A DNA stretch of 41,432 bases from Prochloraceae cyanobacterium. Its GTDB lineage: Bacteria; Cyanobacteriota; Cyanobacteriia; Cyanobacteriales; JASJDA01. Position 1 is the first letter of the stretch. Every line of letters starts with the position of its first letter. This document shows positions 2,623-32,260 of the stretch, piece by piece. The DNA lies in assembly GCA_030065755.1 (NCBI GenBank), contig JASJDA010000049.1, forward strand, positions 1-41,432. The letters run 5' to 3'. Below the pieces are notes generated by a model, which saw only the letters and a program-made list of their open reading frames with translations, was not told the DNA's origin and did not search any database. A program made the translations under genes and the position numbers.

Positions 2623-2795
2623 AACTTAGCGGCATTCACCAAAATCGACAAAACTGTTCCCCGTTTCCCATTCCCTCGTTGACAGAAGCGAAAACATGAC
2701 CTTAGTCATTAAGTATGTATGACTTTTGGCTCTTGGTTAAAAATTTTTTTTGCTCTATTTTATGTGTACAAGCTTTCAACGAGTCCAAATCAATC

Positions 2796-4376: not shown

Positions 4377-5666
4377 TTATTTTTTTATTGGATAAAAACT
4401 AAAGAACCAGGCAGATGCTAAAGCAAAAAGTCCTGCTACAGGAAAAGCCAGTTGTACTCCCCACGGTTGTTCTGGTGTTTTACCCAACATTAGGATTAGA
4501 CCTGCCAACATAGCCCCCAAACCGATACTGCTTTCCGCCAATAGGCCTCTAGTCCCAAAATAAATGGCTTCTCGTCGCAATCCAGTCTGCTTGGCATCTT
4601 CGTCAATCAAATCAGGTAGCATTGCATTTGGCAGAATAAAAAAACCTGCCAATCCTAAACCACTTAAAAATAGTAAAACTAACCAAGGTAGTAAAGCATC
4701 TTCAAATAAAATTGGGCAAATCCCTATTGCCAGAAGTCCACAACCAAACCAAATCATCGAAAGTTGAAAAATGCGTCGCTTCCCCCAATACTTTGCTAAA
4801 AGGTTCACTAGAGGCAATCCCATAGCTGAGCTTCCTAATACAACTGCATTTATGACTGCTCCAAAGCTAATATCTCTATTGAGTAGTGCTACTGCTAGAA
4901 AAGTAGGGCAAATGGTTAAGATGCTAACCGTAACCCATGCACAAGTAATACCTGAGCTATAGCTTCTAAATGATGGGTTATGCCATGCTAATCGCAAAGA
5001 TTTCCAGAAAGTCAGATATTTCTTTTCAACTGGTACTAATTCTTCTGTAACGGCCAAAGGCATTAACAATGTTACAAAACCTATACCTCCAATAATACTT
5101 GCCATTTTGGAAAACCCAAATTGAGAAGTTAGCCATGGCGAACAAATTCCTCCAATAGCTGTTCCCAAAAGAGAAAAAACTGCAATCAGTGTAGAAAGAT
5201 TTACTCTTTCTTTTGGAGTTCTTGCGAGATCTGGTATCCAAGCTAGGTAAGGAACAAAATAGATAGCTAGTGCTAGATAAAACAAGCATAGTATTCCGAT
5301 TAGGTAAACAAAATTGCCAATGGGAACAGAATTTAGAGGGGGAGTAAAGAGCAAAATAAAACAGAATACCAATGGCATAATTCCCACAGCAACAAAAGGT
5401 CGCCTTCGTCCCCAACGACTCGACAATCGATCTGAAAAATGTCCAACAAGAGGCTGAGCGATCGCCCCAAAAACTCGGTTCATAAAAATTGCTGAGCCAA
5501 CTAAAGCCGATGAAACGAGCAAGGGCAGATTGTTCTCATTAGGCACTCCTGGATCGTAACGATATATCAGCATGGTTAACGAGGTATTTATGACTAAATA
5601 TATTCCGAAGCACCCCATTGCATATTTGATTAGTCTAAGCATTTTATTATTTCTAATAGTTACCAA
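4377..5666 (-). CDS. MFS transporter, GPH/sugar-symporter-like
   Basis: A 429-aa polytopic membrane protein with about 12 hydrophobic segments. The N-terminal half carries the MFS loop 2-3 signature in the form GHFSDRLSSRWGRRRPF, characteristic of the glycoside-pentoside-hexuronide (GPH) branch; RREAIYFGTRGLLAE is also typical of that branch. It is the last gene of the minus-strand operon, 55 bp after the glycosyltransferase. In this setting it most likely exports or flips the (glycosylated) product, although GPH proteins are classically sugar:cation importers. Substrate cannot be read from the sequence. No strong terminator was seen; the convergent repeat cluster follows its 3' end. Confidence 0.75.
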   Translation of the reverse strand: MVTIRNNKMLRLIKYAMGCFGIYLVINTSLTMLIYRYDPGVPNENNLPLLVSSALVGSAIFMNRVFGAIAQPLVGHFSDRLSSRWGRRRPFVAVGIMPLVFCFILLFTPPLNSVPIGNFVYLIGILCLFYLALAIYFVPYLAWIPDLARTPKERVNLSTLIAVFSLLGTAIGGICSPWLTSQFGFSKMASIIGGIGFVTLLMPLAVTEELVPVEKKYLTFWKSLRLAWHNPSFRSYSSGITCAWVTVSILTICPTFLAVALLNRDISFGAVINAVVLGSSAMGLPLVNLLAKYWGKRRIFQLSMIWFGCGLLAIGICPILFEDALLPWLVLLFLSGLGLAGFFILPNAMLPDLIDEDAKQTGLRREAIYFGTRGLLAESSIGLGAMLAGLILMLGKTPEQPWGVQLAFPVAGLFALASAWFFSFYPIKK

Positions 5667-5721: not shown

Positions 5722-6840
5722 TCAAGAGGTTGTAGATAATATTTTCCCCAAGATATCTACAACCTCAAACACTCCTTGATTATTAATTGCAGCAGCGTTT
5801 TCCTGATAGCGGACTAAGTTTTTTGGTTCGATTAGCTTTGCAATAGCTCGATCAATTTCCCTGAAATTACGGACTACAATACCAAGATTATTTTTTTCAA
5901 TCCACTTAACGTTGGATAGTTCTTGCAACATTGTTGAAGAATTGCACTCTGTAACTACTGGCAGATTCATCACTGTAGCTTCTCTGGTACTTAAACCAGG
6001 TTTGCCAATCAAAAAATCAGACAGATGCATGTAGTAGGGAATTTCAGTGGTAAAAGTTTCAACGAATTTGGGAAACCTAGCCTTGGTAAAGCGCAGGGTA
6101 CTTGCTAGTTTTTCATTGCATCCACAGATGAAAATAAGTTGTAGATTCAGAGATGATTGCTCTAGACACTTTGCTATATCGAGCATAACCTTTGAACCTC
6201 GGCTACCAAATGATACCAAACCAGTGGGCAAATCTGTATCTAGACCCAAGTACTTTCTTTCGAGTCTGCGGTCAACAGTAATGGGTTTGTAGAATCGAGG
6301 ATGAATTATCCTGCCTGAGTTGCGGAAAATTCTGTCCTCCTGAATACCTAGGGATAGCGCTTCTTCAACTGCTTTCTCAGTGTGACATATTAGGAATTGC
6401 TTTTTATGATCTATCCAGTAGCCAGGATAACTATCAACAAAATCACCTTCAACCGTAAGAAAGGGAATAGCTGGCAAAGCTCTCTGCAAACTTTCGCATA
6501 GTTGTTTGTTCACAAATGGCATCAATGAAACCACCAGATCTGGTTTTTGATGATTCCAGTAGTTTTTCAAACGGGCTAACCAAGCAGATCGCGACCACTG
6601 AATTTTTTGCCTAAACAAAGGAACTGTTAACGGCCAATATATTCTTGTCCAGCCTTGCTTAAGAATGAAATTATTATAATAATCTTCGATCCATTTTGCT
6701 CCTACAATATCCTTATAAAAGTTAACGATGTGGACTTCCCATGGTAGTTGTCTTTGCTCAATAACTTCTTGTAAAGCATTGGCAGAGCTGCGATGTCCTC
6801 CTCCAGCATCAGTAATCATTAGATATATTTTTTTTTTCAT
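5722..6840 (-). CDS. GT28-family glycosyltransferase, MGDG synthase-like
   Basis: 372 aa, a two-domain GT-B enzyme. The N-terminal domain starts MKKKIYLMITDAGGGHRSSA, with the glycine-rich GGGHRS motif of plant-type MGDG synthases (Pfam MGDG_synth). The C-terminal domain has GLVSFGSRGSKVMLDIAK and the nucleotide-sugar site IGKPGLSTREA. Relatives (plant MGD1, bacterial diglucosyl-diacylglycerol synthases, MurG) transfer a hexose from a nucleotide sugar to a lipid or glycerolipid hydroxyl at the membrane face. Cyanobacterial thylakoid galactolipid is normally started by a GT2-type glucosyltransferase (MgdA), so this enzyme is unlikely to be the housekeeping one. It follows the terminal megasynthase by 104 bp in the same operon, and I infer that it glycosylates the released acyl-glycerol. 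The sugar donor is not predictable by eye. Confidence 0.82.
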   Translation of the reverse strand: MKKKIYLMITDAGGGHRSSANALQEVIEQRQLPWEVHIVNFYKDIVGAKWIEDYYNNFILKQGWTRIYWPLTVPLFRQKIQWSRSAWLARLKNYWNHQKPDLVVSLMPFVNKQLCESLQRALPAIPFLTVEGDFVDSYPGYWIDHKKQFLICHTEKAVEEALSLGIQEDRIFRNSGRIIHPRFYKPITVDRRLERKYLGLDTDLPTGLVSFGSRGSKVMLDIAKCLEQSSLNLQLIFICGCNEKLASTLRFTKARFPKFVETFTTEIPYYMHLSDFLIGKPGLSTREATVMNLPVVTECNSSTMLQELSNVKWIEKNNLGIVVRNFREIDRAIAKLIEPKNLVRYQENAAAINNQGVFEVVDILGKILSTTS

Positions 6841-6944: not shown

Positions 6945-9900
6945 TCACAGAAACCCTTTACTAATTAGGTAAGAAAAGTAGGTGTCTAGGAGATTCTTGA
7001 TAGAGGGACAAACAAGATCAGTGGCAGCTAGATAATTTAGGGTGTGCTGGCAGTCAAATTTGGGTCTTTGTCCGAGAGTTTCAAACAAAGTCACTCCTTC
7101 AAATATTTGCTCAAAAAAGAGGGGTAATAGTGGATACAAAGGATTTGAATCAGAAGAGAAAGAAAGATTTACTAGCTCCTGTTGCCATTGTTTGTAGGAA
7201 ATCCGCTCAAGGGGGTAGCCATAGGCACAAATCCATTCCGCCATCTGATTCAAGGACACTATTTGGGAATTAACCAAGTGAAAGACTTGCCCTAAGGATT
7301 TTGATTGCTGTGAAAGATAAAAAATGGATTGAGCTACATAATCGACAGGCACCATTTCCACCCAACCGTCTACAAAAGGTATTTTTCCAAGTTGAATTGT
7401 TCCTCGGAGAATGCGACATATAGCATCATCTGTATTCCATTCTCCTGTGTTACTGTGTCCGGTTATGGCACCTGGTCGGTAGATGCAAACGGGAAGACCT
7501 CGCTCACGTGCGATCGCCACTAACTTTTCCGCTACCCATTTGCTCTGAGCGTATCCTCCATAAACCGTTTCACCAGGAGGCAACTGGTCTGTTTCTTTTA
7601 CCACTTCGACATTCGCGTAGTCTACTGAGTCAAAAACTGCCACCGTAGAAATAAAATGTACTGGTTTTACTTTGGTTTGAGAAGCCAATCGTAGAACTTC
7701 TTGAGTACCTAGAACATTGGCGGCTTTAAGTTTGGAGTAAGGGTAAGTAAAGTTGACAAATGCTCCATTATGATAAACTACATCAATGCGATCGCTTAAT
7801 TCTTGAAACTCTTCGGATGAAAGACCCAGAAGTGGTAATGACAAATCTCCCGGTATCGGAAAGATTCGACTACTGAAATCCTTTTCCCAAATTTGGTAGC
7901 CCTCCAGATTTTTCTGAATCTTCTGCTGAGCTGCTTCAGGATTTGGAGAACGGACTAGGCAGTAAATCTTTGCTTGAGTCTGTTGTAGGAGTTCCCGAAG
8001 TAAGAAAGCACCTAGAAATCCAGTAGCTCCAGTCAAGAAAATTGCTTCTGGTTTAATCAGTTGGGTTGATTCCCATTTTGTATCGGGAGTAATTGCTGGG
8101 TCTAAAATAGCTTCAGCATCCAAATCGATGAATGAGCTGGTAGTCTCAATAGCTTCCTCTCCCCGTTGGATAGCCTCAATGGATTGAGCTAATTCTGCCA
8201 CAGTGGAAACATTGAGTAATTCATTCAGTGGTAACTCTACTTGGAAAGCTTTCCGTACCTGAGACATTAGTTGCACTGCTAACAGAGAATTACCTCCCAG
8301 GTCAAAGAAATTGTCTTTTGTGCCTACTTGTTCCAGGCGCAGTATTTTAGCCCATAGATCGACTAATTGCTTCTCCGTATCAGTATTAGGCGGAATAAAG
8401 GGATGTTGTCCCTCAAGGCGATCTCGAAGATATCCGCTCCGCGGTGCGCGTTTCTGTGATTCAATCGCCAGGGAAATTTGCTCGACATCATATAATTGGT
8501 TAGCAATGCGATTAATTAGGATAGATTTAGACTTGATTGGAGCGATCTGTGTTGACTGATGAACTGGTAAATCTTCTTGAGAATTAGTTGGTTGTGGATT
8601 GTAAGCGATCACTTTACAAAAACTGCTGGGAATCACAAAGTTGCAGCCATCTGTCCCCGATTTCTCAAATTGCCCTACCACACTGTTGAGAAAATCTAAG
8701 AGCGGTTGATTTTTCGCAGTCGGTTTGTAAGTAATAACCACCTTACCAAGACCATCGTCAATAGCAATGGCACCCAACTTAGCCAGCATCTGATGTTCCA
8801 CACCTCTGCCTAACACTCGACAACTGAGCAAAAATGTATCTACTTCTAAGATGTCTCCCTTGAAAGCAAAAATTATCGCTCCAACTAAACCATAATCGCC
8901 AAATCGGTCTTTTACATTTACCACGAGGCAGGTGTGTTTCTCTGACTGGCATATGCTTTGGATTTGGCTTTCTGAACGACGAATAGTAGTAGCGTTAAAC
9001 TGATTCGTCCGCTCAGTGAGTTGAGAAACTCTAGAGATTTGATGGGATGCCATTTCCGTAATTTGAACCTGGAGGTTCAAACTCTTGATAAATTCCCTCA
9101 AGGTCAAAGATTGCTGACGCAATTGCTGTCGCTTGACATTTTGCTGATAATGTAATGTTCTTTGCTTGTCTTCCTTGGTGATTTTTAGACGATCAAAAGC
9201 CCAAATATGCTGTAAAAATCTGGGGATAGTATCTGCGTCTTCTGGCAGTTGCAATGTCAAAACCTCCGGATAGTTCGCTTTAACTTCAGCACATTCAACT
9301 GGGTTGTCATCAATGAAAATAAAGCTATCAAGTCCTAGTTGTAATTCTTGGGATATAGATTTCAGGTTTTCTGACTTAGATTGCCAGTTAATCCGCCAGG
9401 AAACTAAATGTTCCCGCTTGAGTAACATATCTTGACGTTGCTCGAATACTTGCAAAACATCATCTTGATTATTTTTGCTGCACAGGCATAGGAGCATACC
9501 ACTATCCTGCTGTGCAACCATAAATTTCTGAAGTGCTTGGTAGGCTGGAGTTATCGCAATTCCATTTGCTCCATCTTCGCCACAAATCCCTTGCCACAGA
9601 GTACGATCGCAGTCGAGAACTATTACTTTGTAAGGGTTTTGGCGAATGGCGTGGATTTTGCGAGCAATGGTAGTTCCCAAGGCCGTAAAGAAAAGTGGTG
9701 TGAAGGGAATGTGACCGAGTTTATCCCCGTGAGAGTCGTAGAATGTTTCAACTGGGTAGGTGGTAGCTAACTCAGTTGTAGTTACCACATACACTCCACT
9801 GACATCAGCTAATTCCACTACTAATTTTGCTTCCATTTTTTGCAGAAATGGAGCACGTTTTTCCGAAGCAATGGTGCTCGGTGAAGCTGGACACACACAA

Positions 9901-12842
9901 AGTAGGTGGGGGATGGTTGTGCGGACTGCTGCTGTCTTGAATGCTTGTATCAGTTTTTGTACATTCTGCTCTATTTGCTGGGCAAAATTAGCTGATGCAA
10001 TTCCATCTTCTTCAAACCTTACCCAATCTTCAAAGCGCACCAAGACAATATTAACGCCCTGTTTGTTTTGAGCTAGCAAGCTATCAGAAGCTAAGAGTTG
10101 TTGGAATACTTGATTATAAGGAGCAAACTCCATCTGCCAGTTTAAATCCAATTCTTGTAGCCAAAAATCTAAAGAATCTGCAACTGGTTCAGTGGTGAAA
10201 GTGGCTGTAATAGCTACCTTAGGAATTGTTACAGTCTCTAAATTCTCTTCTTTTGTCGTGGTTGGTTGAACTTTCTCTAAATTGATTTTAAATTCTAGTT
10301 CTGGAGTTAATTGGAATTGAGTTAGTTGGGTTTGTGGAGACTGAACGCACTGCTCTAGAATTAAGCAATAGGAATTAATTAGTGCTTCAATTGTATCTTC
10401 ATTGAATAAATCTGGGTTATACTCAAATATTCCTCGTAATTCTTCATCTGACTCTGATATTATTAAAAATAAATCTACATCTGTTGTTGCTCTTGTAGCT
10501 TCCCAAATCGGTATCAAGTTCAGATTAGGAGTGCAGATGCTACTAATTTGTTTTCCCAAAAAGCTAAACAAAACCTGAAATAGGCTGTGATTTTCCCGAC
10601 TGCGTTGCAGTTTCGTAGCTTCAACCACCTTCCCCAATGGTATATTTTTGTGATTGTAGGCTGTCAATATGACTTCGCGCACTCGTTGCAACAATTCTTC
10701 AAAGGAGGGATTACCTGATAAATCATTTCGCAGGAGAATTGGGTAAGCAAAAAAACCAATTAGGGATTGCAGTTGAGGGTGAAACCGTCCTGAAGTGGGA
10801 GAGCCAACAACAATGTCTGTTTGTTTGCAACACTTATGTAGTAAAATTTCTAATGCTGTTAGCAGCGTCATGAAAGGAGTCACTTCATGTTCTTCGCTCA
10901 GTTGTTTTAGATAAGACCAGACATTGGCAGGTACTTTAAAGAATTTATGTGCTCCTCGGTAACTGGGAATTACGGGTCTGGGATGGTCAAGAGGTAATTT
11001 TAGTGGTGAAACCCCATCGAGTTGCTTACTCCAGTAAGTTAATCCTGCATCAAGCATTTCTCCTTGTAGCCACTTTCGTTGCCAAACAGCAAAGTCCCCA
11101 TACTGGATATTTAATTCTGGTAGTGGAGATTCCTTACCTTGGTAAAATGCTTCATACAGCGTTGCAAGTTCTTGAATGAATAGATTGACTGATTTCCCAT
11201 CACTAATAGCGTGATGAATTCTCAGCAACAGTACATGCTCAAAATCATCAAGTTGCAGGAGTTTAAAATCAAACAAGGGCTCCCTTTCTAGATTGAAGGG
11301 TTTTTGTGCTTCTTTCTCAACAAATTCCTGGATAGCGGCAGTTTTCTCGCTCAGATTTAAGCCAAGTAAATTTAACTTATCCAAGGTGATATTAATCTGG
11401 GGTACAATAACTTGAACTAGGGAACCTTCAATTATTGTAAAATTAGTCCGCAAGGCTTCATGACGACGTATTATTTCATTGAGACTGCTTTGTAATATCC
11501 CCATGTTCAATTCACCCTTTAACCAAATTGCTTGAGTGATGTTATGAACTGCACCATTGGGAATGAACTGAGCTGCAGCCCAGAGACGTTCTTGTTCGAA
11601 GGATAACGGTAAATTTTCATCTCGTGAGATAGGTACTAGGGCTATGAAATTACTGTTTATATTCTTATTGCTCTGCTTTGTGGGTTCAGATTTTACTGTT
11701 TCTAATAATAAATTTTCAGCATTTTCTAAAGATATTTCTCCTGTTCTCAGCAGAGATAATATTTCTTCGGTATTTTGACCATTATCGATTTTATTTTTAT
11801 CAATAGCTTTTTCTTCTACCACTTGAGCAGTACTTTCTAGCAATACTTTCTCTGCATTATCTAAGGAAATATCACCCGATTGTAATTTATGTAATACCTC
11901 TTCTTGGGTACTCATTTGTTCTTGATTTTTTAGCATTTTTTGTCTCACAGTCGATTGTTCGTTGTTCTTTTCTGATACTGGAGACACTTGCTTTTGAATA
12001 TTTCCTGATTCATTTGACAATATTTGACTCAAATTATGTGGCTTTTGACTAATAGTTGTTTCACTAAAAAAAATCTCAATTTTATTTGCGACTTCTGGTT
12101 GATGAAAGGTTATTTCATGCATATCTAGTTCTTGATTGACAACTTCTGGTAATTTTTCTCTAATTACCGAAGTTAAATGTTTTTTTAAAGTTACTAGAGA
12201 TAATCTAGGTTTTTTTGCTATTTCATTTGCCAAACTATAAGCATAGTTCAGCACATCTTTTCTTGGTACAACTGGAAAAGTAATACCGCGTTTGGCTAAT
12301 TCTTCCCCTCGATAGTTTTGGGCAGTATACATCATTTCTTGTCCTAAGACAGAACCTAATTTTGCAGGTACAACGAACGTACATCCGAATCCAGGCGTGA
12401 AACCATACTTCATAAAATTAGTTGTGTAAATACTTTCTTGACTTAACACAACTAAATCTGCATATAAACCAAACACTAAACCACCACCAATTCCATGACC
12501 TTGCATAGCTGCAATGACTGGTATTTTACAATCTAATAATATTCTGAAAAAATTAAACTCATTAAATTTAATTTCTCTTTGATGAATTTTTATTAATTCT
12601 TCCTTTGTACCTCCCGATGCAAAATAATTTCCATATCCTGTTAGAATAACTACTCTATAGTTATTGTTGTGAGCAACTTTATCAAAACATTTATATAATC
12701 CTTCAATTAGTCCAGGGGAAAAGGTATTGCGGGTTTCTTCATCTTTCATCGTAATTTGAACGACACCATTGCGCAACTCCACCAGTTGTACCACCTCGGT
12801 ATTGCTCTTTGCTGAGTTCATATTAATATTTAGGCTTGCCAT
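6945..12842 (-). CDS. ECH2 - C - FkbH - PCP - thioester reductase megasynthase
   Basis: 1965 aa. (1) Residues 1-260: crotonase of ECH2 type (GHGIGGGLVFG), the decarboxylase of beta-branching cassettes. (2) 300-390: linker with two copies of a helical motif (LQSGDISLDNAEKVLLES and LRTGEISLENAENLLLET). (3) ~410-845: condensation domain with intact HHAISDG (543-549). (4) ~880-1415: FkbH-like region with HAD motif DCDRTLWQG (1077-1085), which in the family dephosphorylates and loads 1,3-bisphosphoglycerate as glyceryl thioester, plus its GNAT-like C-terminal part. (5) ~1485-1560: PCP, LGGNSL with Ser1519. (6) ~1600-1965: short-chain reductase release domain with GATGFLG (1605-1611) and YAQSK (Tyr1764, Lys1768). 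There is no adenylation domain: FkbH occupies its place. Also absent is the ER domain that follows ECH2 in CurF and JamJ. The ATG overlaps the ECH1 stop by 13 nt. Confidence 0.93.
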   Translation of the reverse strand: MASLNINMNSAKSNTEVVQLVELRNGVVQITMKDEETRNTFSPGLIEGLYKCFDKVAHNNNYRVVILTGYGNYFASGGTKEELIKIHQREIKFNEFNFFRILLDCKIPVIAAMQGHGIGGGLVFGLYADLVVLSQESIYTTNFMKYGFTPGFGCTFVVPAKLGSVLGQEMMYTAQNYRGEELAKRGITFPVVPRKDVLNYAYSLANEIAKKPRLSLVTLKKHLTSVIREKLPEVVNQELDMHEITFHQPEVANKIEIFFSETTISQKPHNLSQILSNESGNIQKQVSPVSEKNNEQSTVRQKMLKNQEQMSTQEEVLHKLQSGDISLDNAEKVLLESTAQVVEEKAIDKNKIDNGQNTEEILSLLRTGEISLENAENLLLETVKSEPTKQSNKNINSNFIALVPISRDENLPLSFEQERLWAAAQFIPNGAVHNITQAIWLKGELNMGILQSSLNEIIRRHEALRTNFTIIEGSLVQVIVPQINITLDKLNLLGLNLSEKTAAIQEFVEKEAQKPFNLEREPLFDFKLLQLDDFEHVLLLRIHHAISDGKSVNLFIQELATLYEAFYQGKESPLPELNIQYGDFAVWQRKWLQGEMLDAGLTYWSKQLDGVSPLKLPLDHPRPVIPSYRGAHKFFKVPANVWSYLKQLSEEHEVTPFMTLLTALEILLHKCCKQTDIVVGSPTSGRFHPQLQSLIGFFAYPILLRNDLSGNPSFEELLQRVREVILTAYNHKNIPLGKVVEATKLQRSRENHSLFQVLFSFLGKQISSICTPNLNLIPIWEATRATTDVDLFLIISESDEELRGIFEYNPDLFNEDTIEALINSYCLILEQCVQSPQTQLTQFQLTPELEFKINLEKVQPTTTKEENLETVTIPKVAITATFTTEPVADSLDFWLQELDLNWQMEFAPYNQVFQQLLASDSLLAQNKQGVNIVLVRFEDWVRFEEDGIASANFAQQIEQNVQKLIQAFKTAAVRTTIPHLLCVCPASPSTIASEKRAPFLQKMEAKLVVELADVSGVYVVTTTELATTYPVETFYDSHGDKLGHIPFTPLFFTALGTTIARKIHAIRQNPYKVIVLDCDRTLWQGICGEDGANGIAITPAYQALQKFMVAQQDSGMLLCLCSKNNQDDVLQVFEQRQDMLLKREHLVSWRINWQSKSENLKSISQELQLGLDSFIFIDDNPVECAEVKANYPEVLTLQLPEDADTIPRFLQHIWAFDRLKITKEDKQRTLHYQQNVKRQQLRQQSLTLREFIKSLNLQVQITEMASHQISRVSQLTERTNQFNATTIRRSESQIQSICQSEKHTCLVVNVKDRFGDYGLVGAIIFAFKGDILEVDTFLLSCRVLGRGVEHQMLAKLGAIAIDDGLGKVVITYKPTAKNQPLLDFLNSVVGQFEKSGTDGCNFVIPSSFCKVIAYNPQPTNSQEDLPVHQSTQIAPIKSKSILINRIANQLYDVEQISLAIESQKRAPRSGYLRDRLEGQHPFIPPNTDTEKQLVDLWAKILRLEQVGTKDNFFDLGGNSLLAVQLMSQVRKAFQVELPLNELLNVSTVAELAQSIEAIQRGEEAIETTSSFIDLDAEAILDPAITPDTKWESTQLIKPEAIFLTGATGFLGAFLLRELLQQTQAKIYCLVRSPNPEAAQQKIQKNLEGYQIWEKDFSSRIFPIPGDLSLPLLGLSSEEFQELSDRIDVVYHNGAFVNFTYPYSKLKAANVLGTQEVLRLASQTKVKPVHFISTVAVFDSVDYANVEVVKETDQLPPGETVYGGYAQSKWVAEKLVAIARERGLPVCIYRPGAITGHSNTGEWNTDDAICRILRGTIQLGKIPFVDGWVEMVPVDYVAQSIFYLSQQSKSLGQVFHLVNSQIVSLNQMAEWICAYGYPLERISYKQWQQELVNLSFSSDSNPLYPLLPLFFEQIFEGVTLFETLGQRPKFDCQHTLNYLAATDLVCPSIKNLLDTYFSYLISKGFL

Positions 12843-13606
12843 GGAAATACCCCCTCTTTTTTAAAGCGTTTAATTTTTTCTTGAACAGTAAGATCGGCTA
12901 ACAAACTACAAACTTTGTTGACAGCTAAATCTTGAGTTTCTTGTTGAATAATCCATAACTGATTAATATAGTTTTTTAAATCCTTTACTCCAGATGAGGG
13001 TAAATACTTTAAACGCCGAATATATTGACCAATTAACTGATTAGTATTATTGCCATATTCATCAATTAAGCCCCAGTTATAAGCCTCTGATGCTGAGATT
13101 ACTTGAGTCGTTAGTGCTAAACGGTAGGCTTTTTGAAATCCCACTCGACGAATCAAAAATGGCAATACACAAGCTGGCAATAAACCAAATAATAGTTCTG
13201 ATAAAACAAAGGTGACAGTTTCATCTGCAATAACTAAATCACTTGCTGCTACCAAACCCACTCCCCCTGCTTGTACTTTGCCTCGTACAACTGACAAAAT
13301 CACTTTGCTACTTTGGGACATTTGTTTCAGGATGTTGTAGTAACCATGAGAACTCATTTTTGGATCTACCTGCTTTCCGTCTGCTACTTCTTGAAAATCC
13401 ATTCCTGTACAAAACACATCAGGTAGTCCTTCTAGGATCACCACTTTAACTTTTTCCTCGGCTTCAGCAGCTTGCAAAGCGGACAATAATTCTTGAGTCA
13501 GCTGAGTATTGATGCTATTGTTAGCTTCGGGCCGATATATCTGAATCCTTTGTACAGCATGTTGATGATTAATTTTTAGGGTTTGATAGTCCATAGCTAT
13601 ACCCAC
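12830..13606 (-). CDS. ECH1 enoyl-CoA hydratase-like dehydratase of beta-branching
   Basis: 258 aa crotonase-fold protein, family of CurE/JamI/PksH. It has the oxyanion-hole segments FCTGMDFQEV and GKVQAGGVGLVAASD. In these pathways ECH1 removes water from the HMG-type intermediate on the acceptor ACP, giving the 3-methylglutaconyl form that ECH2 then decarboxylates. The gene is sandwiched between the HMG synthase homologue and the ECH2 domain, the usual order. The frame can start at GTG 13606, overlapping the HMGS stop by 10 nt, or at ATG 13594, two bases after it; the ATG would give MDYQTLK as N-terminus. Assignment as ECH1 rather than ECH2 rests on stand-alone form, position and the separate ECH2-like domain next door. 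Confidence 0.88.
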   Translation of the reverse strand: MGIAMDYQTLKINHQHAVQRIQIYRPEANNSINTQLTQELLSALQAAEAEEKVKVVILEGLPDVFCTGMDFQEVADGKQVDPKMSSHGYYNILKQMSQSSKVILSVVRGKVQAGGVGLVAASDLVIADETVTFVLSELLFGLLPACVLPFLIRRVGFQKAYRLALTTQVISASEAYNWGLIDEYGNNTNQLIGQYIRRLKYLPSSGVKDLKNYINQLWIIQQETQDLAVNKVCSLLADLTVQEKIKRFKKEGVFPWQA

Positions 13607-14856
13607 TCATACTCCCGATGAAATTCCTTAATGGCTTTCAACACTAATCGACCTTTGCCTTCGATATGCTTCCAAACTCTTGGGAAGATTTGATAGTCTA
13701 AAGTCACATTTCGGGTACCAAAGGCAACTGCACTACTGTTTACGAGTAATTGCTCATATTCCTCTATACTTAAGGAATGGCGCTGTGCTAACTGTGTAGA
13801 AATACCGTATTGAGCTTGAATTTCCTTTCCTTCTGGAGTAACAACCCCACTATAAAATTCTGAACAACAACCAGAACCGTAGGAAAATAGACCAATGCGT
13901 CGAGGATTGGTAAATTCCCCGTTGTCAATGGTGCTAGCTAAAGATAAAAGTACCGTTGCTCCCATAATGTTGCCTACCTGTTGGCAATAGACTAATCCAG
14001 GCATCACCCGTCTCTGAAAGTCATTTTCAATCTCAACGGGTTTAGCCCTTTTAAACTTACGCATCATCTTCCTGTGAGCGCCTTTGACCATACCGCCAAA
14101 AGGTGTATGAAAACTCAAGTAATCAAAACTGTTTTGGTAGTCCGCTCTTTCTACCCTGTCTTGATAGTGGAGGTAAGCATTTTCGCAACAATCTAAGTAA
14201 GAAAGTAATGATAAGTCTGCATCTCCTGCTTCTGAATCTGGGGTTGGTCTGCAGGTATCCATTACTTCATAGCCATAGTAACCATTGCAACCCACATCTA
14301 CTTGAAAAATGTAAGGAACATCACTTACTAGAATAGCTACGGCTCCAGCACCACTACTAGCTTCAGCAAAAGAACAATCTTTCAGGCGGGCATCTCCCCC
14401 TTCGGTAACAAAAAACCGAGATATGTCAGTTGCGATCACTAAAGCCTTGGCTCCAGGAGATGTTTGGGACAAAACAAAATTCAATGCCATTTGAAAACCC
14501 GCAGTACCAGAGTAACAAGCTTGTTTAAGTTCAAACATACGGCAATTGCGACTTAATCCTAAATAATCATGAATATAGCTGCTGATAGATTTGCCAAAAT
14601 CTATGCCGGATTCGGTACAAGTAATCACCATTTCAATGCGCTGCTTGTCCGCATCATTTAAGCTGTCAACAATCGGCTTGGCTGCATTCACTGCATAAGA
14701 AACAGGATCCTCGTAAGGCATGGCGACTGTTTTCTCTTTCATCAGTAAATTGTCGAAGCGAGTTCTTTCTAATTGACGAGCTTCTGCTAATACTTGTACA
14801 TCTAGCTTTGCTGCTCCTCCATATACATTGAGAGCTTCAATCCCAACTTGTTGCAT
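13597..14856 (-). CDS. HMG-CoA synthase homologue of the beta-branching cassette
   Basis: 419 aa, the CurD/JamH/PksG type. It condenses acetyl-donor ACP (made by the decarboxylating KS) with the beta-ketoacyl chain on the acceptor ACP to give an HMG-like branch. The catalytic triad is visible: Glu82 in CTESGID, Cys114 in KQACYSG and His250 in FHTPFGG; the last two fall at the same positions as reported for CurD. KQACYSGTAG and FSYGSGCCSEFYSG are family hallmarks. It follows the KS0 gene by 44 bp and overlaps ECH1. Because it sits in a PKS operon with KS0 and two ECH genes, a role in mevalonate synthesis is very unlikely. Confidence 0.95.
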   Translation of the reverse strand: MQQVGIEALNVYGGAAKLDVQVLAEARQLERTRFDNLLMKEKTVAMPYEDPVSYAVNAAKPIVDSLNDADKQRIEMVITCTESGIDFGKSISSYIHDYLGLSRNCRMFELKQACYSGTAGFQMALNFVLSQTSPGAKALVIATDISRFFVTEGGDARLKDCSFAEASSGAGAVAILVSDVPYIFQVDVGCNGYYGYEVMDTCRPTPDSEAGDADLSLLSYLDCCENAYLHYQDRVERADYQNSFDYLSFHTPFGGMVKGAHRKMMRKFKRAKPVEIENDFQRRVMPGLVYCQQVGNIMGATVLLSLASTIDNGEFTNPRRIGLFSYGSGCCSEFYSGVVTPEGKEIQAQYGISTQLAQRHSLSIEEYEQLLVNSSAVAFGTRNVTLDYQIFPRVWKHIEGKGRLVLKAIKEFHREYEWV

Positions 14857-14900: not shown

Positions 14901-16139
14901 CTATTTTCCAATTACTAAAGCTGTATTAATACCTCCAAAAGCAAAACTATTACTTATGGCATATTTAATATCAGCTTCTTTGGCTGTTTCTTTGACCCAA
15001 TTGAATTTGGTATCAATGGGATTAACTAAGTTATTAGTAGGATGACAAAATCCCGCCTTCATTTGCAATAAAGTAGCAATGACCTCTACCACTCCAGCAG
15101 CAGTTAAACAGTGACCTGTTAGAGACTTTGTGGCATTGACTAAACAGTGGGATAGTCCTACAGATTTCAAAGCAGCTACTTCTGTTTTGTCACCTAAAGG
15201 AGAACTAGTGCCGTGGGTATTCACATAGTCAATCTGCTCTGGCTTTAACTCTGCCATAGCTAGAGCAGCATTCATGGCTCGTTCTTCCCCTTTTTGAGAT
15301 GGCTCAGGACTGCGGTTTCCATCTAAACCTAATCCCCAGCCAATGAGTTGTCCATGAGAAACTACTCCCCTTTGTTGAGCATGCTCGGCTTTTTCGAGGA
15401 CAACAACCCCACAACTTTCTCCATAAATAAAGCCATCATGGTCTCGATCAAATGGCCGACAAGCCAGATTAGGAGTATCGGCAAAACGCTCACTACCCAT
15501 AGCTCCTAAATTTTTCAATCCTTGACACTCCCATAGAGATATATCAAACAGAGGTCCAACTGCAATACTCACATCCGCAACCCCCAATTGAATTTGACGA
15601 GCTGCATGAATTAGGGCAATAGAGCCACCAGCAGAAGCCCCAGCTACGCTATAACCTTCTCCTTGAATGTGAAAACATTGAGACAGTAAACTTACCAAAT
15701 CGGTATCCCAAAAAGTCACTCCATAAGTTGGTCTTAAAAATTCAGGCTTATCAGCATAACGTTGCCAGATTTCTTCCTGATAACGTTGTTGGAAATTTGA
15801 CCCGCCTACTACAATGCCTACACGTTCAGGGTTTACTCCCCCAGAAGAAAGTTTTGCATCTTGCCAAGCTTCAGAAACAGCAATGGTTGCGATCTGGGTA
15901 CTCCATGAAGCCGTACGAAGTAAGTTACTATATTCAGGAAATAAAGATTTAGCCTCAATATCTGGAAGTTCTGCTCCCAGAAATGGTTTAAATCCCTGAC
16001 GCCCAGGTCGTTTGAGATAACCAAAATGCGTTTTTCCTGTAAATAGAGCTTCTTGAAAAGTGGCAATATTTTGACCAATTGAAGTAACAATGCCCATACC
16101 AGTTATCTCTATTCTTACTGGATCTGGACTAGATCCCAT
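14901..16139 (-). CDS. Decarboxylating ketosynthase (KS0) with Cys-to-Ser active site
   Basis: 412 aa stand-alone KAS of the CurC/JamG/PksF type. The nucleophile position reads SVAGASAGG, aligning with the STACTSG of condensing enzymes, so the catalytic Cys is Ser169. Both histidines remain: His309 in VNTHGTSSPLGD and His343 in SLTGHCLTAAG. Such enzymes do not condense; they decarboxylate malonyl-ACP to acetyl-ACP, supplying the two-carbon unit for the HMG synthase. The ATG lies inside the last codons of the upstream PKS gene (11-nt overlap), which suggests translational coupling. The likely substrate is malonyl on the third ACP of that PKS, since no separate donor ACP gene exists. Confidence 0.93.
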   Translation of the reverse strand: MGSSPDPVRIEITGMGIVTSIGQNIATFQEALFTGKTHFGYLKRPGRQGFKPFLGAELPDIEAKSLFPEYSNLLRTASWSTQIATIAVSEAWQDAKLSSGGVNPERVGIVVGGSNFQQRYQEEIWQRYADKPEFLRPTYGVTFWDTDLVSLLSQCFHIQGEGYSVAGASAGGSIALIHAARQIQLGVADVSIAVGPLFDISLWECQGLKNLGAMGSERFADTPNLACRPFDRDHDGFIYGESCGVVVLEKAEHAQQRGVVSHGQLIGWGLGLDGNRSPEPSQKGEERAMNAALAMAELKPEQIDYVNTHGTSSPLGDKTEVAALKSVGLSHCLVNATKSLTGHCLTAAGVVEVIATLLQMKAGFCHPTNNLVNPIDTKFNWVKETAKEADIKYAISNSFAFGGINTALVIGK

Positions 16140-19100
16140 GATTTACCTCTAACTTAGCTGCAAATAAATCAGCTAGTTCTCCAATATTCTTAGCTCCAGC
16201 TAATTCAATGAGTTGAATATGTAAATCTAACTCTTCCATAACCATCATAATAATTTCTGCCCTATTCATTGAATCAATCCCTAATTGTTGTAGGCTATCA
16301 GTAGGTTTTAGAGATACTTTTGCTAATTCTGGAACTATGTCATAAGTGTATTTTTTAATAAGTTCAATGATTGGATTATTTTTTATGCTAGATTCTTGTA
16401 AATCATTTTCAGCTTTACTTTGTTGTTTGATTTCTTGAATCATTTGCTTTGCTTCTTGAATAGTTAATTCATGATTTGCAACCTTATTCAGTATGGGACG
16501 TATTTTTTGCCTTATGTCCTCTTGTGATTCTTTAAGTAAATCCAGATTTTGTGGAGATTCTTCTGGAGAATATTGATTAACTTGAGATAATTCATTTCTA
16601 TTTTTAGAATAAATTTCTTCAGTGATGTATTTAGCTAAATCCCATAAGGTAGGATAATCATATAACTTGGTAGCTTTAATATTTAAATTGTAAGTTTGAT
16701 TTATGGTGGTTATCCATTCAACTCCAACGATAGAATCTAACCCTAAATCAATAAATTTCTGGTCTTCTTCTATTTCACTAATCTCTATATACAGGGCTTC
16801 TGCTAATTGTTGTTTTAAAAGCTCCTTGACTTCTAATAAGTTTACCTGAAAGTTATTTGATAGTTGTAAACTTTCTAAAGGTTGCTGATTTTGATTGCTG
16901 ATGTCAACTTCTGTTTGGGAGGATTTTTGGTGATTAACTTGGATATTTTGACCTGGGGTGGATAGGTTTTGAGCGATATATTCTGTCAACTTTAGTAAGG
17001 TCGGGTAGTCATACAATTTAGTTGCCTTAATGTTTAAATTGTAAATTTGATTTATGGTGGTTATCCATTCGACTCCCACAATAGAATCTAACCCTAAATC
17101 AATAAACTTCTGGTCTTCTTTGATTTCACTGATGTCTGCATACAAGGCTTCTGCCAGACTTTGCTTTAGGGTTTCTTTGATTTGAGCAAAATTAACATCT
17201 AAGTTATCTAATCTTGATATATTTGGTGTTTCAGCAATATTTTCTGAATTAAGATCTAAGTTATCTAGTTTTGATACACTTGGTGTTTCCGTAATCTTTT
17301 CAGATTCAACGGCAATATTTTTTGAATTAAGATCTAAGTTATTTAGTTTTGATACACTTGGTATTTTCGTGATATTTTCAGATTCAACGGCAATCCTTTC
17401 TGATAAGGTTTTTTTTAGATAAGGTATATCTCGTAAATAAGGGGATTTTAGCCCCTGTTTAATTGAACGTGAAACCATAACTAATACACTATCTTTATAG
17501 TAACGAGGTAATGTTTTATAGTATCTTGAATGCAATTGAGAATATTTTGATAATAAACCCAATCTTTCCTCGTCCACACGAGTGTCATAATCTACAAGTC
17601 TAATAACAAAAGCACGCCGCAACTTATGTAAACCTGGTTTTAAAGGAACCGATCTGTGTAATACATACTTATTAAAAAATAATACGTCTCCAACTTTATA
17701 CTCATCTTCTTCATAGTTATCTTGAATGGTGTAATCTATTGCTTCTTGCGTGATGTTATTAAGAATAGTATTAGCATTGGCTACATATTCATTCAAATCT
17801 CCTTTTGATTCATCCCATTTGATATTATTTCTTAAATGTAAATCATTAATAGTGTAATAAAAATGACCTGGAAAAGTTTTTGTAGATACATATTGCATAC
17901 CACCTCGATATTCTTTAGTGATTTCATCTAATGGTATCCAGATTGATGCTCCAAAATCTTCTGTTTTTGTAAAAGAAAATGAGCCAACTCCAACGTGCCA
18001 TGGGAATCTACTTTGATTAGGTTCAACTGAAAAAAGAGCATTGTGCATAATCACGATCTTTTTTCCAGTGATGTAATTTAAAAAAGGTAGCTTCCCTTTT
18101 ATTAATGAAGAAACAAAATCGTACTTTACCAAATCATAAGCAGGATATGTTGTATCAATGTCGTCATTTTTCGCTAGTTTTAGTGTTACTTTTTCTTTGG
18201 AAACATTGCTTTCACTTTTAGCACTTTCTAATGTTTCTTGAATTCTTTCTATTTCAGAGAAATTAAAGAAATTTTTAATTTGACAGTATCCTTTATTTTC
18301 ATACTCTCCTTTTAATTTATCGAGTTGTTCTCTGTCGATGAGTTTGAGTTCTTTTATTTTCTCTTTGTCATTTTCTAAAACAGACATTGTCTTTTGAGAG
18401 ACAACATCTTGCTGAGCTAATTGAAGAGGTTCCGAATCCACAGATTTAAACTTCAATTGAACTAATTGTCTTTTAGGTATTTGCTTTAGTGAAGAAGCTT
18501 TGGGGACAGACACTGAATCTAGATTTGATAATGTTATTTTTGGTGCCTCTAAGTTCTGGCTGTGTTTTTTCATTGAAACAAAGTCACTAGTTGATTTTTG
18601 CACTACCTTTAACCCATTTGGTTGAGCAGAGGGACGACTTTCAAGCTTTACTGATGCTACTTTTTTTTCTAAGTTAGACACTTCGGACACCCTATTTGGG
18701 GCGGGTTGAATATCTGTTATCCAATAACGCCGTCGTTGCCAAGGATATGTTGGTAATACCACTTTATTACGGGAATAATCTCCGTCAAACCCTAACCAAT
18801 CAACTTTGACTCCCCGCACATATAATTGTCCCAAACTTTGTAGCATTTGTTGCCAGTCTTCTCGACCAGAACGCAGAGAAGGCAACCAAACTCCTACATC
18901 GTCTGGCAAACACTGCCTTCCCATCCCTAACAAAATTGGTTTGGGTCCAATTTCTAGGAAGACTTCATAACCTTCTTGGTGCAAAGTCTCCATACTTTGG
19001 GCAAACTTGACTGGTTGGCGTACATGGTTTACCCAATAGCTGGCTGTAGCAATACTCTCGTCTGCTCTGGTACCAGTTACATTTGAGATCAGTGGAATCC

Positions 19101-21492
19101 GAGGTTGACTGTAGCTTATTTGATTGGTAATTGCTTTAAAGTCCGCCAACATCGGTTCCATTAAGGGGGAATGGAATGCGTGGGATACTTCTAACTGTTT
19201 TGTCTTGATTCCAAGTGATTTTAAACTGTCCCAAAGCTTACTAATGACTTCTCCTGAACCAGAAATGACAACACTTTCGGGTCCGTTGACGGCAGCTATT
19301 GCCACTTTTTCTGCGTATGGGGCAATCAGTTGATTTACTTTCGACTCTGATGCCATTACAGCTACCATCTCCCCTCCAGAAAGTAACTGCTCCATTAAAT
19401 GTCCCCGATAGGCAATCAGTTTTAATCCATCTTCTAAACTAAATACGCCTGCTATTGTTGCTGCTACATATTCTCCGACACTATGACCCATAACCACATC
19501 TGGTTGAATTCCCCAGGATTGCCATAACGAACCCAAGGCATATTCAATGGCAAATAGTGCTGGTTGAGTATAAGCAGTTTGGTTAATGAGATAACTGTTT
19601 GTTTCTTTACTATTTTCAGGATAAAGAATGTCTAAAATCGATTTTTCTAAATAAGATTGTAGAATTTGCTCGCACTGGTCTAAGGTTCGACGGAAGACAG
19701 GTTGCGTTTCATAAAGTTGTCTTCCCATATTCACATACTGAGAACCTTGTCCAGTAAACAAGAAGGCAATCTTAGGTGATTTACTATTACTAGAAAGTTC
19801 TGCAGAAAATACACCTAATGGTTCTTCTCTGGCACTAATTTTTACTAATTTATCAGCTAATTCTTGTTTGTCAGATGTAATAATCGCTAAACGATGGTTA
19901 AAGTGCGATCGCCCCGTATTGGCAGTAAAACAAATATCTGCGATCGCTGCTGTGGAATTATCAGCTAAAAATTCTTCATAAGATTGTACTAACTCTTGCA
20001 AAGCTTTTTCACATTTAGCAGATAAAGTTAATATATGGTGCGATCGCTCGGTTACTGGATCGATGTTGACTGTTAACTGTTGACTAATAACTGAAAAAGT
20101 TGCTTCTTCTAGGATGATGTGGACGTTTGTCCCACTCATCCCAAAAGTACTTACTCCAGCTAATCTTTTTTCTTCATTAGTTTCCCAGGGAATTAATTTA
20201 GTAGGAACTTTAACAGGTAACTTTTCCCAAGGTATATAAGGATTGGGATTTTTAAAATGTAGATGAGGCGCTATTTGTTGATTTTGCAATTGTAGAATAA
20301 CTTTAATCAAAGATGCAATCCCTGCTGCTGCTTCTAAATGACCAAAATTAGTTTTAACTGAAGCGATATTTAAAGGTCGTGTTGGTAAACGTTTTTCTCC
20401 TAAAATTTTTCCTAATGCTAAAACTTCAATTGGATCCCCTAAAGATGTTCCCGTGCCGTGAGTTTCTACATATTCGATTTCATGGGGTTGTACTTTAGCA
20501 TTTTTTAAAGCCTGTCGTAATACCAATTCTTGAGCAGAGCCATTAGGTGCTGTTAAACCATTACTTTTGCCATCATGATTAACGGCAGAACCTTTAACTA
20601 AAGCTAAAATATTATCACCATCTGCCATGGCATCAGATAATCTTTTTAAGACGATAACACCGCATCCTTCTCCTCTCACATAGCCATTCGCAGACTGATC
20701 GAAAGTTTTGCATCTTCCATCAGGCGCTAAGGCTTTTAACTTGGAAAAACCAATTGTAACTTCTGGGGAAAGCATCATATTTACTCCCCCTGCTAAAGCT
20801 AACTCAGATTCTCCTCGTCGTAAACTATGACAAGCTAAATCAACTGCTAATAAAGAAGATGAGCAACTGGTATCTAAGAAGAAAGCCGGTCCTTGTAATC
20901 CTAAAGTATAACTTAATCTTCCGGCGGCTATACTTCGAGCATTGCCTAAACTACTATAAGCATCAATGGTAGTGGGCTCAATGGATGGAATAGCTAATTT
21001 AGCATAATCTTCAAAACAGATACCCATAAAAACTCCTGTTGATGTGCCTTGGAGCTGATCGGGAGCTATTCCAGCATTTTCTAATGCTTCCCAACTAACT
21101 TCTAAGAGGAATCTTTGTTGAGGATCCATACTTATAGCTTCTCTGGGAGAAATGCCAAAAAATTGCGGCTCAAATTGCTCAACATCGTCCAAAAATCCGC
21201 CATATTTACTATACATTTTTCCTGCTACATCAGGATCGGAATCATAATATTGTTCCACATCCCATCTTTGAGGAGGAATTTCTGTAATAGCATCAACTCC
21301 TTTTTTTAACAGTTGCCAAAATTCTTCGGGATTTTTAACTCCCCTCGGAAAACGACATCCCATACCAATAATGGCAATAGGTTCACTCTTTTGCCGTTCT
21401 ACTTCTTCTAATTGAGTCCGTGCTTGTTTAAGAGCTTGGAGGATCCGTTTTGAGGAAGCTAGGGATTCATTTTGTTGCTCAACTTTCTTCAT
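16129..21492 (-). CDS. PKS: KS - AT - Fe/2OG halogenase - ACP - ACP - donor ACP
   Basis: 1787 aa from ATG 21492, chosen because it starts 1 nt after the upstream stop behind AGGAA; a frame from 21552 would overlap by 59 nt. KS 36-465: Cys210 (DTSCSS), His345, His385. AT 574-870: GHSVGE with Ser671 and HAFH (771-774), i.e. malonyl-specific. No KR, DH or ER. About 1050-1320: Fe(II)/2-oxoglutarate oxygenase fold with WHVG (His1166, Gly1168), distal His1279 and Arg1292/1293/1298. Gly in place of the metal-binding Asp is the halogenase hallmark, as in CurA and JamE. ACP1 (~1440-1507, Ser1470) and ACP2 (~1557-1624, Ser1587) share GLDSIVGVEW, with the Trp typical of beta-branching acceptor ACPs. ACP3 (~1708-1780, Ser1741, GIDSMNRAEI) resembles the acetyl-donor ACPs that are separate proteins elsewhere. 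Acts on the ACP-bound chain from the FAAL protein. Confidence 0.95.
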   Translation of the reverse strand: MKKVEQQNESLASSKRILQALKQARTQLEEVERQKSEPIAIIGMGCRFPRGVKNPEEFWQLLKKGVDAITEIPPQRWDVEQYYDSDPDVAGKMYSKYGGFLDDVEQFEPQFFGISPREAISMDPQQRFLLEVSWEALENAGIAPDQLQGTSTGVFMGICFEDYAKLAIPSIEPTTIDAYSSLGNARSIAAGRLSYTLGLQGPAFFLDTSCSSSLLAVDLACHSLRRGESELALAGGVNMMLSPEVTIGFSKLKALAPDGRCKTFDQSANGYVRGEGCGVIVLKRLSDAMADGDNILALVKGSAVNHDGKSNGLTAPNGSAQELVLRQALKNAKVQPHEIEYVETHGTGTSLGDPIEVLALGKILGEKRLPTRPLNIASVKTNFGHLEAAAGIASLIKVILQLQNQQIAPHLHFKNPNPYIPWEKLPVKVPTKLIPWETNEEKRLAGVSTFGMSGTNVHIILEEATFSVISQQLTVNIDPVTERSHHILTLSAKCEKALQELVQSYEEFLADNSTAAIADICFTANTGRSHFNHRLAIITSDKQELADKLVKISAREEPLGVFSAELSSNSKSPKIAFLFTGQGSQYVNMGRQLYETQPVFRRTLDQCEQILQSYLEKSILDILYPENSKETNSYLINQTAYTQPALFAIEYALGSLWQSWGIQPDVVMGHSVGEYVAATIAGVFSLEDGLKLIAYRGHLMEQLLSGGEMVAVMASESKVNQLIAPYAEKVAIAAVNGPESVVISGSGEVISKLWDSLKSLGIKTKQLEVSHAFHSPLMEPMLADFKAITNQISYSQPRIPLISNVTGTRADESIATASYWVNHVRQPVKFAQSMETLHQEGYEVFLEIGPKPILLGMGRQCLPDDVGVWLPSLRSGREDWQQMLQSLGQLYVRGVKVDWLGFDGDYSRNKVVLPTYPWQRRRYWITDIQPAPNRVSEVSNLEKKVASVKLESRPSAQPNGLKVVQKSTSDFVSMKKHSQNLEAPKITLSNLDSVSVPKASSLKQIPKRQLVQLKFKSVDSEPLQLAQQDVVSQKTMSVLENDKEKIKELKLIDREQLDKLKGEYENKGYCQIKNFFNFSEIERIQETLESAKSESNVSKEKVTLKLAKNDDIDTTYPAYDLVKYDFVSSLIKGKLPFLNYITGKKIVIMHNALFSVEPNQSRFPWHVGVGSFSFTKTEDFGASIWIPLDEITKEYRGGMQYVSTKTFPGHFYYTINDLHLRNNIKWDESKGDLNEYVANANTILNNITQEAIDYTIQDNYEEDEYKVGDVLFFNKYVLHRSVPLKPGLHKLRRAFVIRLVDYDTRVDEERLGLLSKYSQLHSRYYKTLPRYYKDSVLVMVSRSIKQGLKSPYLRDIPYLKKTLSERIAVESENITKIPSVSKLNNLDLNSKNIAVESEKITETPSVSKLDNLDLNSENIAETPNISRLDNLDVNFAQIKETLKQSLAEALYADISEIKEDQKFIDLGLDSIVGVEWITTINQIYNLNIKATKLYDYPTLLKLTEYIAQNLSTPGQNIQVNHQKSSQTEVDISNQNQQPLESLQLSNNFQVNLLEVKELLKQQLAEALYIEISEIEEDQKFIDLGLDSIVGVEWITTINQTYNLNIKATKLYDYPTLWDLAKYITEEIYSKNRNELSQVNQYSPEESPQNLDLLKESQEDIRQKIRPILNKVANHELTIQEAKQMIQEIKQQSKAENDLQESSIKNNPIIELIKKYTYDIVPELAKVSLKPTDSLQQLGIDSMNRAEIIMMVMEELDLHIQLIELAGAKNIGELADLFAAKLEVNHGI
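16621..17175 (-). repeat. Duplicated tandem acceptor-ACP segments
   Basis: ACP1 (16972-17175) and ACP2 (16621-16824) are near copies, differing at roughly 14 of 70 residues and identical over the core around the phosphopantetheine serine. They are linked by about 50 Q/N/S-rich residues. Duplicated acceptor ACPs are known to raise flux in beta-branching modules. Confidence 0.85.
17188..17391 (-). repeat. Three in-frame ~20-30-residue linker repeats
   Basis: Between the halogenase domain and ACP1 the protein carries three degenerate copies of a segment containing PSVSKLDNLDLNSENIA, with spacers such as VESEKITET (residues about 1368-1435). The DNA repeats as well (for example GATCTAAGTTAT plus TTTGATACACTTGGT on the plus strand). 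It looks like a flexible, slippage-prone linker rather than a fold. Confidence 0.7.
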
Positions 21493-21493
21493 G

Positions 21494-31784: not shown

Positions 31785-32070
31785 GTACAGCCGCGATAGG
31801 CTCGCAATAGCTTTCTCCAATCCATCTCAGAAAAAGCATAATTCAGTTCAAATTTCTCTAAATAAAGCTTGAAACTGGACTTTAGACTAAATCGCGATCG
31901 CGTAGCGCACGCAAAGCGTGACCGTGAGTTGACTAATGCGCTCAGCTTTCGCACGCAAAGCGTGATTGCGAACCTCACTTCTTTTTTATAAACTAAACCG
32001 TTCAGTTGTACCGGAGGGGGCGATGCCGATACGCAAGCGCATCGGCATCGGGCCAACTGCTTTTGACTGC

Positions 32071-32260
32071 GCCCATCGCGAGCTGACTGATGCGATCGCG
32101 AGTTGACCAATGCGATCGCGAGTTGACCAATGCGATCGCGAGTTGACCAATGCGATCGCGAGTTGACCAATGCGATCGCGAGTTGACCAATGCGATCGCG
32201 AGTTGACCAATGCGATCGGGACTTGAACAATGCGATCGGGACTTGAACAATGCGATCGGG
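32071..32260. repeat. 20-bp HIP1-containing minisatellite
   Basis: The unit TGCGATCGCGAGTTGACCAA is repeated six times perfectly (32091-32210), preceded by one degenerate copy and followed by two copies of the variant TGCGATCGGGACTTGAACAA and a half unit. Every perfect unit carries the GCGATCGC octamer. Open frames across it exist only because 20 bp repeats cycle through frames without stops. It is not a CRISPR: there are no unique spacers. Confidence 0.95.

Follow-up and report, generated by a model that had tools for sequence, protein, structure and literature searches.

A short jamaicamide-like assembly line of a cyanobacterium ends in a C-FkbH-PCP-R module that may release an acylglycerol

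The window analysed here, a stretch of 41,432 nucleotides that forms one contig (G000:C362) of an 8.5-Mb cyanobacterial genome, contains a jamaicamide-like assembly line whose last gene encodes the domain order ECH2-C-FkbH-PCP-R. We propose that this line builds a glycerate ester, releases it reductively as a monoacylglycerol and then passes it on for transfer of a sugar, and we put the probability of this overall scheme at about 0.52. Glycerate esterification and reductive release are each known, and what would be new is their combination in one module. A literature search of incomplete coverage returned neither an FkbH domain coupled to reductive release to an acylglycerol nor such a molecule.

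The terminal gene (6945..12842, minus strand) codes for a protein of 1965 aa in a single open frame without stops, in which Pfam and NCBIfam profiles place ECH2 at aa 1-275, C at 410-850, FkbH at 1072-1393, PCP at 1492-1553 and R at 1601-1965; the domains, their motifs and order and the neighbours of the assembly line can be read directly from the window. The ECH2 domain of an HMGS cassette (12018..12842; PF00378, PRK07110), fused to the module, is 58-67% identical to ECH2 of the jamaicamide type. It is followed on the same strand by the condensation (C) domain (10293..11615; PF00668, E=3.3e-95), with an intact HHxxxDG motif in the form HHAISDG (11196-11216), by the FkbH glyceryl transferase/phosphatase region (8433..10010) and by the carrier domain (PCP, 8184..8369; PF00550, E=5.2e-16; GGNSL at aa 1516-1520). 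The core of the FkbH region (8664-9629) scores 318.9 bits with TIGR01686, for which the cut-off is 146.65, and is preceded by the usual N-terminal extension. In an alignment of 38 FkbH sequences, both Asp residues and the Thr of its DxDxT motif as well as the Cys of SCRxLGRG match at least 95% of the sequences.

The R domain, a terminal thioester reductase (6948..8042, minus strand), lies at the end of the protein, directly behind the PCP and the FkbH domain. The first-pass annotation had stated that it keeps GATGFLG and YAQSK, and both motifs were located, the former at aa 1605-1611 (8010-8030) and the latter at aa 1764-1768 (7539-7553). When the last ~365 residues were compared with TIGR01746, a score of 375.6 bits was obtained (cut-off 213.35), and the whole protein as query matched Pfam NAD_binding_4 in this region with E=1.2e-75. 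Alignment to the MxaA reductase (PDB 4U7W, E=4e-109) revealed 50% identity across 358 aligned residues, with GGYAQSKWVAEK of the R domain falling on the identical string of MxaA. A second string of the Y..SK type, YPYSK (within NFTYPYSK), was rejected as catalytic dyad; YAQSK aligns with the dyad of MxaA. The domain thus combines a score above the family cut-off with GxxGxxG and the S/T-Y-K residues, and no other protein of the host genome exceeds the TIGR01746 cut-off. As the Tyr essential for reduction is present, a non-redox R* domain is not expected here, and judging from its motifs the domain very probably acts in reductive release of some form.

D-glycerate is the unit used by FkbH domains. 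The O-acylated glyceryl thioester that had been assumed on the PCP proved to be the best-supported part of the scheme, and this premise is well founded on the intact FkbH motifs, on the HHAISDG motif and tree position of the C domain, and on the precedent of vioprolide and corramycin. In these two pathways, the joining of a fatty acid to glycerate through an ester bond has been linked to a FAAL-ACP-C-FkbH-T arrangement, and activation of D-3-phosphoglycerate has been demonstrated for the FkbH domain of vioprolide (PMC8949500; PMC10099666). The features of such a glycerate module are present in the window, namely a C domain directly before FkbH and T, a FAAL in the line and an intact HHxxxDG. 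A tree was built from 32 C domains, a small set that included no characterised ester-forming domain, and in it the C domain of the window fell within a group of seven with support of 100/99; five of these stand directly before FkbH, another precedes an A domain and the last lies in a probable remnant. This grouping supports, short of proof, an ester specificity of the window C domain. By sequence, the FkbH domain should load a glyceryl unit onto the PCP and the C domain, being of the kind that precedes FkbH, should acylate it on oxygen; by analogy with the characterised modules, an ester is very likely formed on the glyceryl thioester.

The chain to be transferred is predicted to come from five genes upstream on the same strand. 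These encode a FAAL-acyl-CoA dehydrogenase-ACP loading protein (21494..25429), a PKS with the domains KS-AT-halogenase-ACP-ACP-ACP(donor) (16129..21552), a decarboxylating KS whose active-site Cys is replaced by Ser (14901..16139; PRK07103, 569.7 bits), an HMG-CoA synthase (HMGS) homologue (13597..14856) and ECH1 (12830..13606; PRK07112, 320 bits). The halogenase domain is similar to CurA Hal (3NNF; E=5.7e-157) and carries HVG at the position where hydroxylases of the same family have HxD. With this Gly/Ala for Asp, the tandem ACPs, the donor ACP, the KS with Ser, HMGS, ECH1 and ECH2, the complete set of jamaicamide/curacin cassette features was found. The decarboxylating KS, halogenase, HMGS and ECH1 are 72-83% identical to their counterparts in a cluster of jamaicamide layout (G083) and in the clusters of G304 and G214. 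Tandem repeats of 57/78 bp occupy positions 17190-17403, in the part of the PKS gene that links the halogenase to the first ACP. From the identity of the cassette and the fusion of ECH2 to C-FkbH-PCP-R we infer that this is a short line of the jamaicamide type, predicted to make a once-extended, beta-branched and, according to the match to CurA Hal, probably chlorinated fatty acyl chain. Jamaicamide carries a vinyl chloride (PMC2799420), and by analogy a vinyl chloride is the likely form of the beta-branch because no enoyl reductase follows.

In the scheme that we propose, FAAL would load a fatty acid, the chain would be dehydrogenated and extended once, and the HMGS cassette together with the CurA-type halogenase would install the beta-branch, probably as a chlorovinyl group. 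The FkbH domain would dephosphorylate D-1,3-bisphosphoglycerate and load D-glyceryl onto the PCP, the C domain would transfer the chain to a hydroxyl of the glycerate to give an O-acyl-glyceryl thioester, and the R domain with NADPH would release this chain, most likely with four electrons, as a monoacylglycerol. Acylation at O3 would lead to 1-O-acyl-sn-glycerol, the new CH2OH being sn-3, and acylation at O2 to a 2-acylglycerol; the adjacent MGDG/UgtP-like glycosyltransferase would then most likely add a sugar to a free hydroxyl. Loading of glycerate, esterification, reduction and chlorination are deduced from known enzyme families, while the alcohol instead of the aldehyde, the choice of O3 or O2, the sugar transfer and any betaine head group are guesses. 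Reduction of D-glyceraldehyde 3-phosphate gives sn-glycerol 1-phosphate, and by the same stereochemical rule an acyl group on O3 of D-glycerate comes to lie at sn-1 and the C1 carbinol at sn-3. The sn-3 hydroxyl is the attachment point of the head groups of bacterial glycolipids and betaine lipids. Thus, with O3 acylated and C1 reduced, the R domain would create the very hydroxyl that bears the head group. For an open acylglycerol, i.e. the alcohol, as the released product we see about an even chance.

By sequence comparison, the C-FkbH-PCP-R order is a recurrent design and not an accident of this contig, as it was encountered in a second genome of the order and on a plasmid from another phylum, with a probable remnant in a third genome. 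Of 34 other FkbH loci that were read within this order, one (G383:C136:53774-58621) shares the C-FkbH-PCP-R arrangement, with 45, 55, 58 and 52% identity by domain to the window, and FAAL and HMGS-cassette genes lie near this module on the opposite strand. In G003:C318 (L104), a C domain of this kind precedes a fragment of an R domain, 35 residues long and 71% identical, and broken pieces of a FAAL, which makes this locus a probable decayed remnant of C-(FkbH-PCP)-R. The megaplasmid pMEGANia of Niallia taxi (Bacillota; NZ_CP102590.1, L115:7685-14707), whose record holds no annotated features at this place, carries one gene with the order KS-ACP-C-FkbH-PCP-R, which has no ketoreductase and is accompanied by separate AT and A-PCP genes. 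The FkbH search of the genome contigs returned no further C-FkbH-PCP-R. A lone gene for an HlyD-family adaptor lies near the cluster in the window (2715-3989), and an HlyD gene with 33% identity is found near the G383 cluster (L112).

The closest characterised module is the C-NEX-T-Red module of malleicyprol BurF, in which a hydroxy acid bound to the carrier is esterified and the ester is set free by reduction as an aldehyde, whereupon the beta-keto chain closes to a butenolide; its NEX domain is similar to the extension at the N-terminus of FkbH proteins (PMC12304814). The window module matches this order, here with a full FkbH. By the same logic, a two-electron release in the window would give 2-O-acyl-glyceraldehyde, the acyl alpha-carbon of which could close onto the aldehyde to a 5-(hydroxymethyl)butenolide, and the glycosyltransferase would use its CH2OH. 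The Niallia gene, since it lacks a ketoreductase, would supply the right donor for this chemistry, and we predict for it either a BurF-like butenolide or acyl-glycerol release. For the window we regard the closure as unlikely. In BurF it uses the acidic CH2 of a beta-ketoacyl ester, whereas the beta-carbon in the window is processed by HMGS, ECH1 and ECH2 and the position is much less acidic; when BurF was given mimics that have no beta-keto group, its aldehyde could be trapped in the open form (PMC12304814). Assignment to the class of BurF-type butenolide modules was therefore rejected, the HMGS/ECH cassette acting on a beta-carbon that this class leaves unprocessed, and an open product is favoured over a BurF-like closure. 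The relationship of the R domain to MxaA, which forms an alcohol, likewise argues against this route.

The same relationship bears on whether release halts at the acyl-glyceraldehyde, which would then be used as such or undergo reduction or oxidation by a further enzyme. The R domains known from nostocyclopeptide, saframycin and Lys2 do halt at the aldehyde, whereas the MxaA reductase is among those that yield a primary alcohol (PMC2835699). We consider a stop at the aldehyde rather doubtful, as MxaA is the closest characterised R domain and no separate aldehyde reductase was seen within 4377-31447. Together, the proximity to an alcohol-forming reductase and the presence of the Tyr required for reduction favour, as far as a sequence can tell, a four-electron over a two-electron outcome. 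Of the earlier prediction that the thioester is reduced to acyl-glyceraldehyde or monoacylglycerol, the reductive release is therefore supported, on the intact catalytic triad and the kinship to MxaA, and the open alcohol is favoured with the BurF-like closure as its rival. That the FkbH domain loads another three-carbon hydroxy acid, such as lactate, so that an acyl-propanediol and not an acylglycerol would result, is improbable: some FkbH domains are reported to load such units, and the one of bryostatin BryA is said to load lactate, but the window FkbH agrees in every catalytic column with 37 further domains of this family from cyanobacteria, and glycerate is the unit installed by all FkbH modules in the literature that we compared. 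Finally, the decayed relative in G003 might suggest a degenerate module, or one serving a larger line with parts elsewhere whose R domain releases something else, which is very improbable given that a single frame holds every domain intact and that the gene lies tightly against the cassette, in the expected order.

Returning to the monoacylglycerol as the preferred product, an MGDG/UgtP-like glycosyltransferase is encoded 104 bp downstream on the same strand (5722..6840; PF06925, PRK13609). It scores 29.5 with PF06925 (cut-off 25), 21.6 with GT28_C (22) and 71.9 with the UgtP equivalog (500), and it matches the UgtP profile PRK13609 over nearly the full length with E=4.6e-20, well under the cut-off of that model. 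No second member of its Pfam family is encoded in the host genome. When 100 related genomes and a plasmid collection were searched, all close relatives (56-57%) proved to lie inside FAAL-PKS clusters. These clusters belong to G066 and to a plasmid of Nostoc sp. UHCC 0926, and both contain a second, more distant glycosyltransferase copy a few kilobases away. This distribution makes the enzyme look like one of fatty-acyl polyketide pathways. No FkbH or R domain was seen in the FAAL-PKS clusters holding the homologues, so the glycosyltransferase need not act on an acylglycerol, which nevertheless is plausible. The two FAAL-PKS clusters with two MGDG-like glycosyltransferases each (L113:5102-26274 on Nostoc plasmid pn1, and L100/L101 in G066:C2) probably make a glycosylated fatty polyketide; in G066, a UDP-galactopyranose mutase gene adjoins the first glycosyltransferase. 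An MFS_2 transporter (4377..5666, minus strand; PF13347, E=1.8e-49) possibly belongs to the cluster in the window.

Beyond the FAAL gene, at a distance of 941 bp and in divergent orientation, lie genes for a DUF3419 (BtaA family) protein (26371..27570, plus strand; PF11899, E=6.7e-112) and a SAM methyltransferase that is BtaB-like by position (27597..28331, plus strand), a combination as in BtaA/BtaB pairs; membership of both in the cluster is uncertain. Betaine lipid synthases are found among the DUF3419 proteins: a gene of Microchloropsis annotated as DUF3419 has been identified by homology as betaine lipid synthase (PMC10685587). By family, a diacylglycerol-type glycosyltransferase and a BtaA/BtaB-like pair would be the kinds of enzyme that modify acylglycerols. 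Pairs with 50-62% identity occur in eight other cyanobacteria, and no PKS gene of the window kind was seen around them, which counts against a role of the pair in the scheme. Neither the glycosyltransferase nor a BtaA/BtaB pair was found around the G383 module or in the 23 kb around the Niallia gene. A PlsC-like acyltransferase before BtaA in other cyanobacteria was also considered and rejected, as the small genes upstream yielded no match of this kind. A distant type of DUF3419 (about 25%) is divergent to FAAL clusters at four loci (L062, L063, L066 and L068 in G277, G308, G311 and G364), with ACAD, KS-AT and C-A in the two clusters that were read further, which suggests that aminocarboxypropyl transferases have been recruited to lipopeptide-like pathways. 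The complete scheme, in which the acylglycerol receives a sugar or a betaine head group, is tentative.

Further features of the window were recorded. Positions 28361-30172 encode a protein of 603 aa that has a PEMT domain at its C-terminus, unassigned parts towards its N-terminus and a fold prediction of pLDDT 38; it was rejected as a cluster marker because its only relative in 376 genomes (G166, 86%, one in-frame TAG) has no Bta or PKS genes nearby. Three different 20-bp tandem-repeat arrays (32064-32258, 32694-32941 and 33711-33883; about 9, 12 and 9 copies) lie in a stretch devoid of convincing genes. A lysine 2,3-aminomutase-like radical SAM gene, an EamA transporter and an ATP-grasp gene follow in a row (34452-38541) and possibly form another small pathway, and the left end (472-2289) encodes a V-type ATP synthase subunit A, here in a cyanobacterium.

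The first-pass annotation had seen in the R domain a way to make the glycerol backbone of a lipid without glycerol-3-phosphate acyltransferases. This may hold for the line's own molecule and fails as a general route, since the host genome has a good PlsY (PF02660, 176 bits) and several PlsC-type acyltransferases, so that the line is no substitute for the synthesis of membrane lipids and would serve a specialised product. If the scheme is true, a lipid glycerol backbone is built from 1,3-bisphosphoglycerate on a carrier protein, glycerol-3-phosphate acyltransferases are bypassed for this product, and a chlorinated acylglycerol, glycolipid or betaine lipid is predicted in a cyanobacterium, with C-FkbH-PCP-R as a genomic signature present in at least two phyla. 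Its most far-reaching form, which we offer as a speculative suggestion, is a membrane-type glycerolipid made by an assembly line: a 1-O-(chlorovinyl acyl)-sn-glycerol with a backbone from 1,3-bisphosphoglycerate, an sn-3 hydroxyl made by the R domain, and a sugar (GT28-like) or homoserine-betaine (BtaA/BtaB) head.

Compared with known systems, the line shares with jamaicamide and curacin cassettes the KS-AT-Hal-tandem ACP arrangement, donor ACP, decarboxylating KS, HMGS, ECH1 and ECH2, but its donor ACP is fused to the PKS, and its ECH2 is fused to C-FkbH-PCP-R, where the line terminates, whereas ECH2 of jamaicamide-type clusters is fused to further PKS modules. With the starter modules of vioprolide and corramycin it has in common a FAAL-fed chain, a C domain, an FkbH domain instead of an A domain, a carrier and, as predicted, esterification of glycerate by the C domain; there the acyl-glyceryl thioester moves on to NRPS modules and a TE, whereas in the window R follows directly after the carrier and the chain is also PKS-extended and beta-branched. 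BurF resembles the module in its C-domain ester on a carrier-bound hydroxy acid, its FkbH-type N-terminal extension and its reductive release, and differs in lacking the phosphatase and transferase parts of FkbH, in using another hydroxy acid and in a beta-ketoacyl donor that allows closure. The R domain of MxaA (myxalamid) shares half of its residues, the same motifs and the terminal position behind a carrier domain, but its substrate is the thioester of an acyl-amino acid. Like MGDG synthase and UgtP, the neighbouring glycosyltransferase has an MGDG_synth Pfam domain above cut-off and a PRK13609 match across nearly the whole protein, although it stays far under the equivalog cut-offs and has its nearest relatives in FAAL-PKS clusters. 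The pair of DUF3419 protein and adjacent SAM methyltransferase, of putative function here, is arranged as in BtaA/BtaB betaine lipid synthesis; it shares about 28-33% identity with its S. meliloti counterparts and differs in standing beside a PKS.
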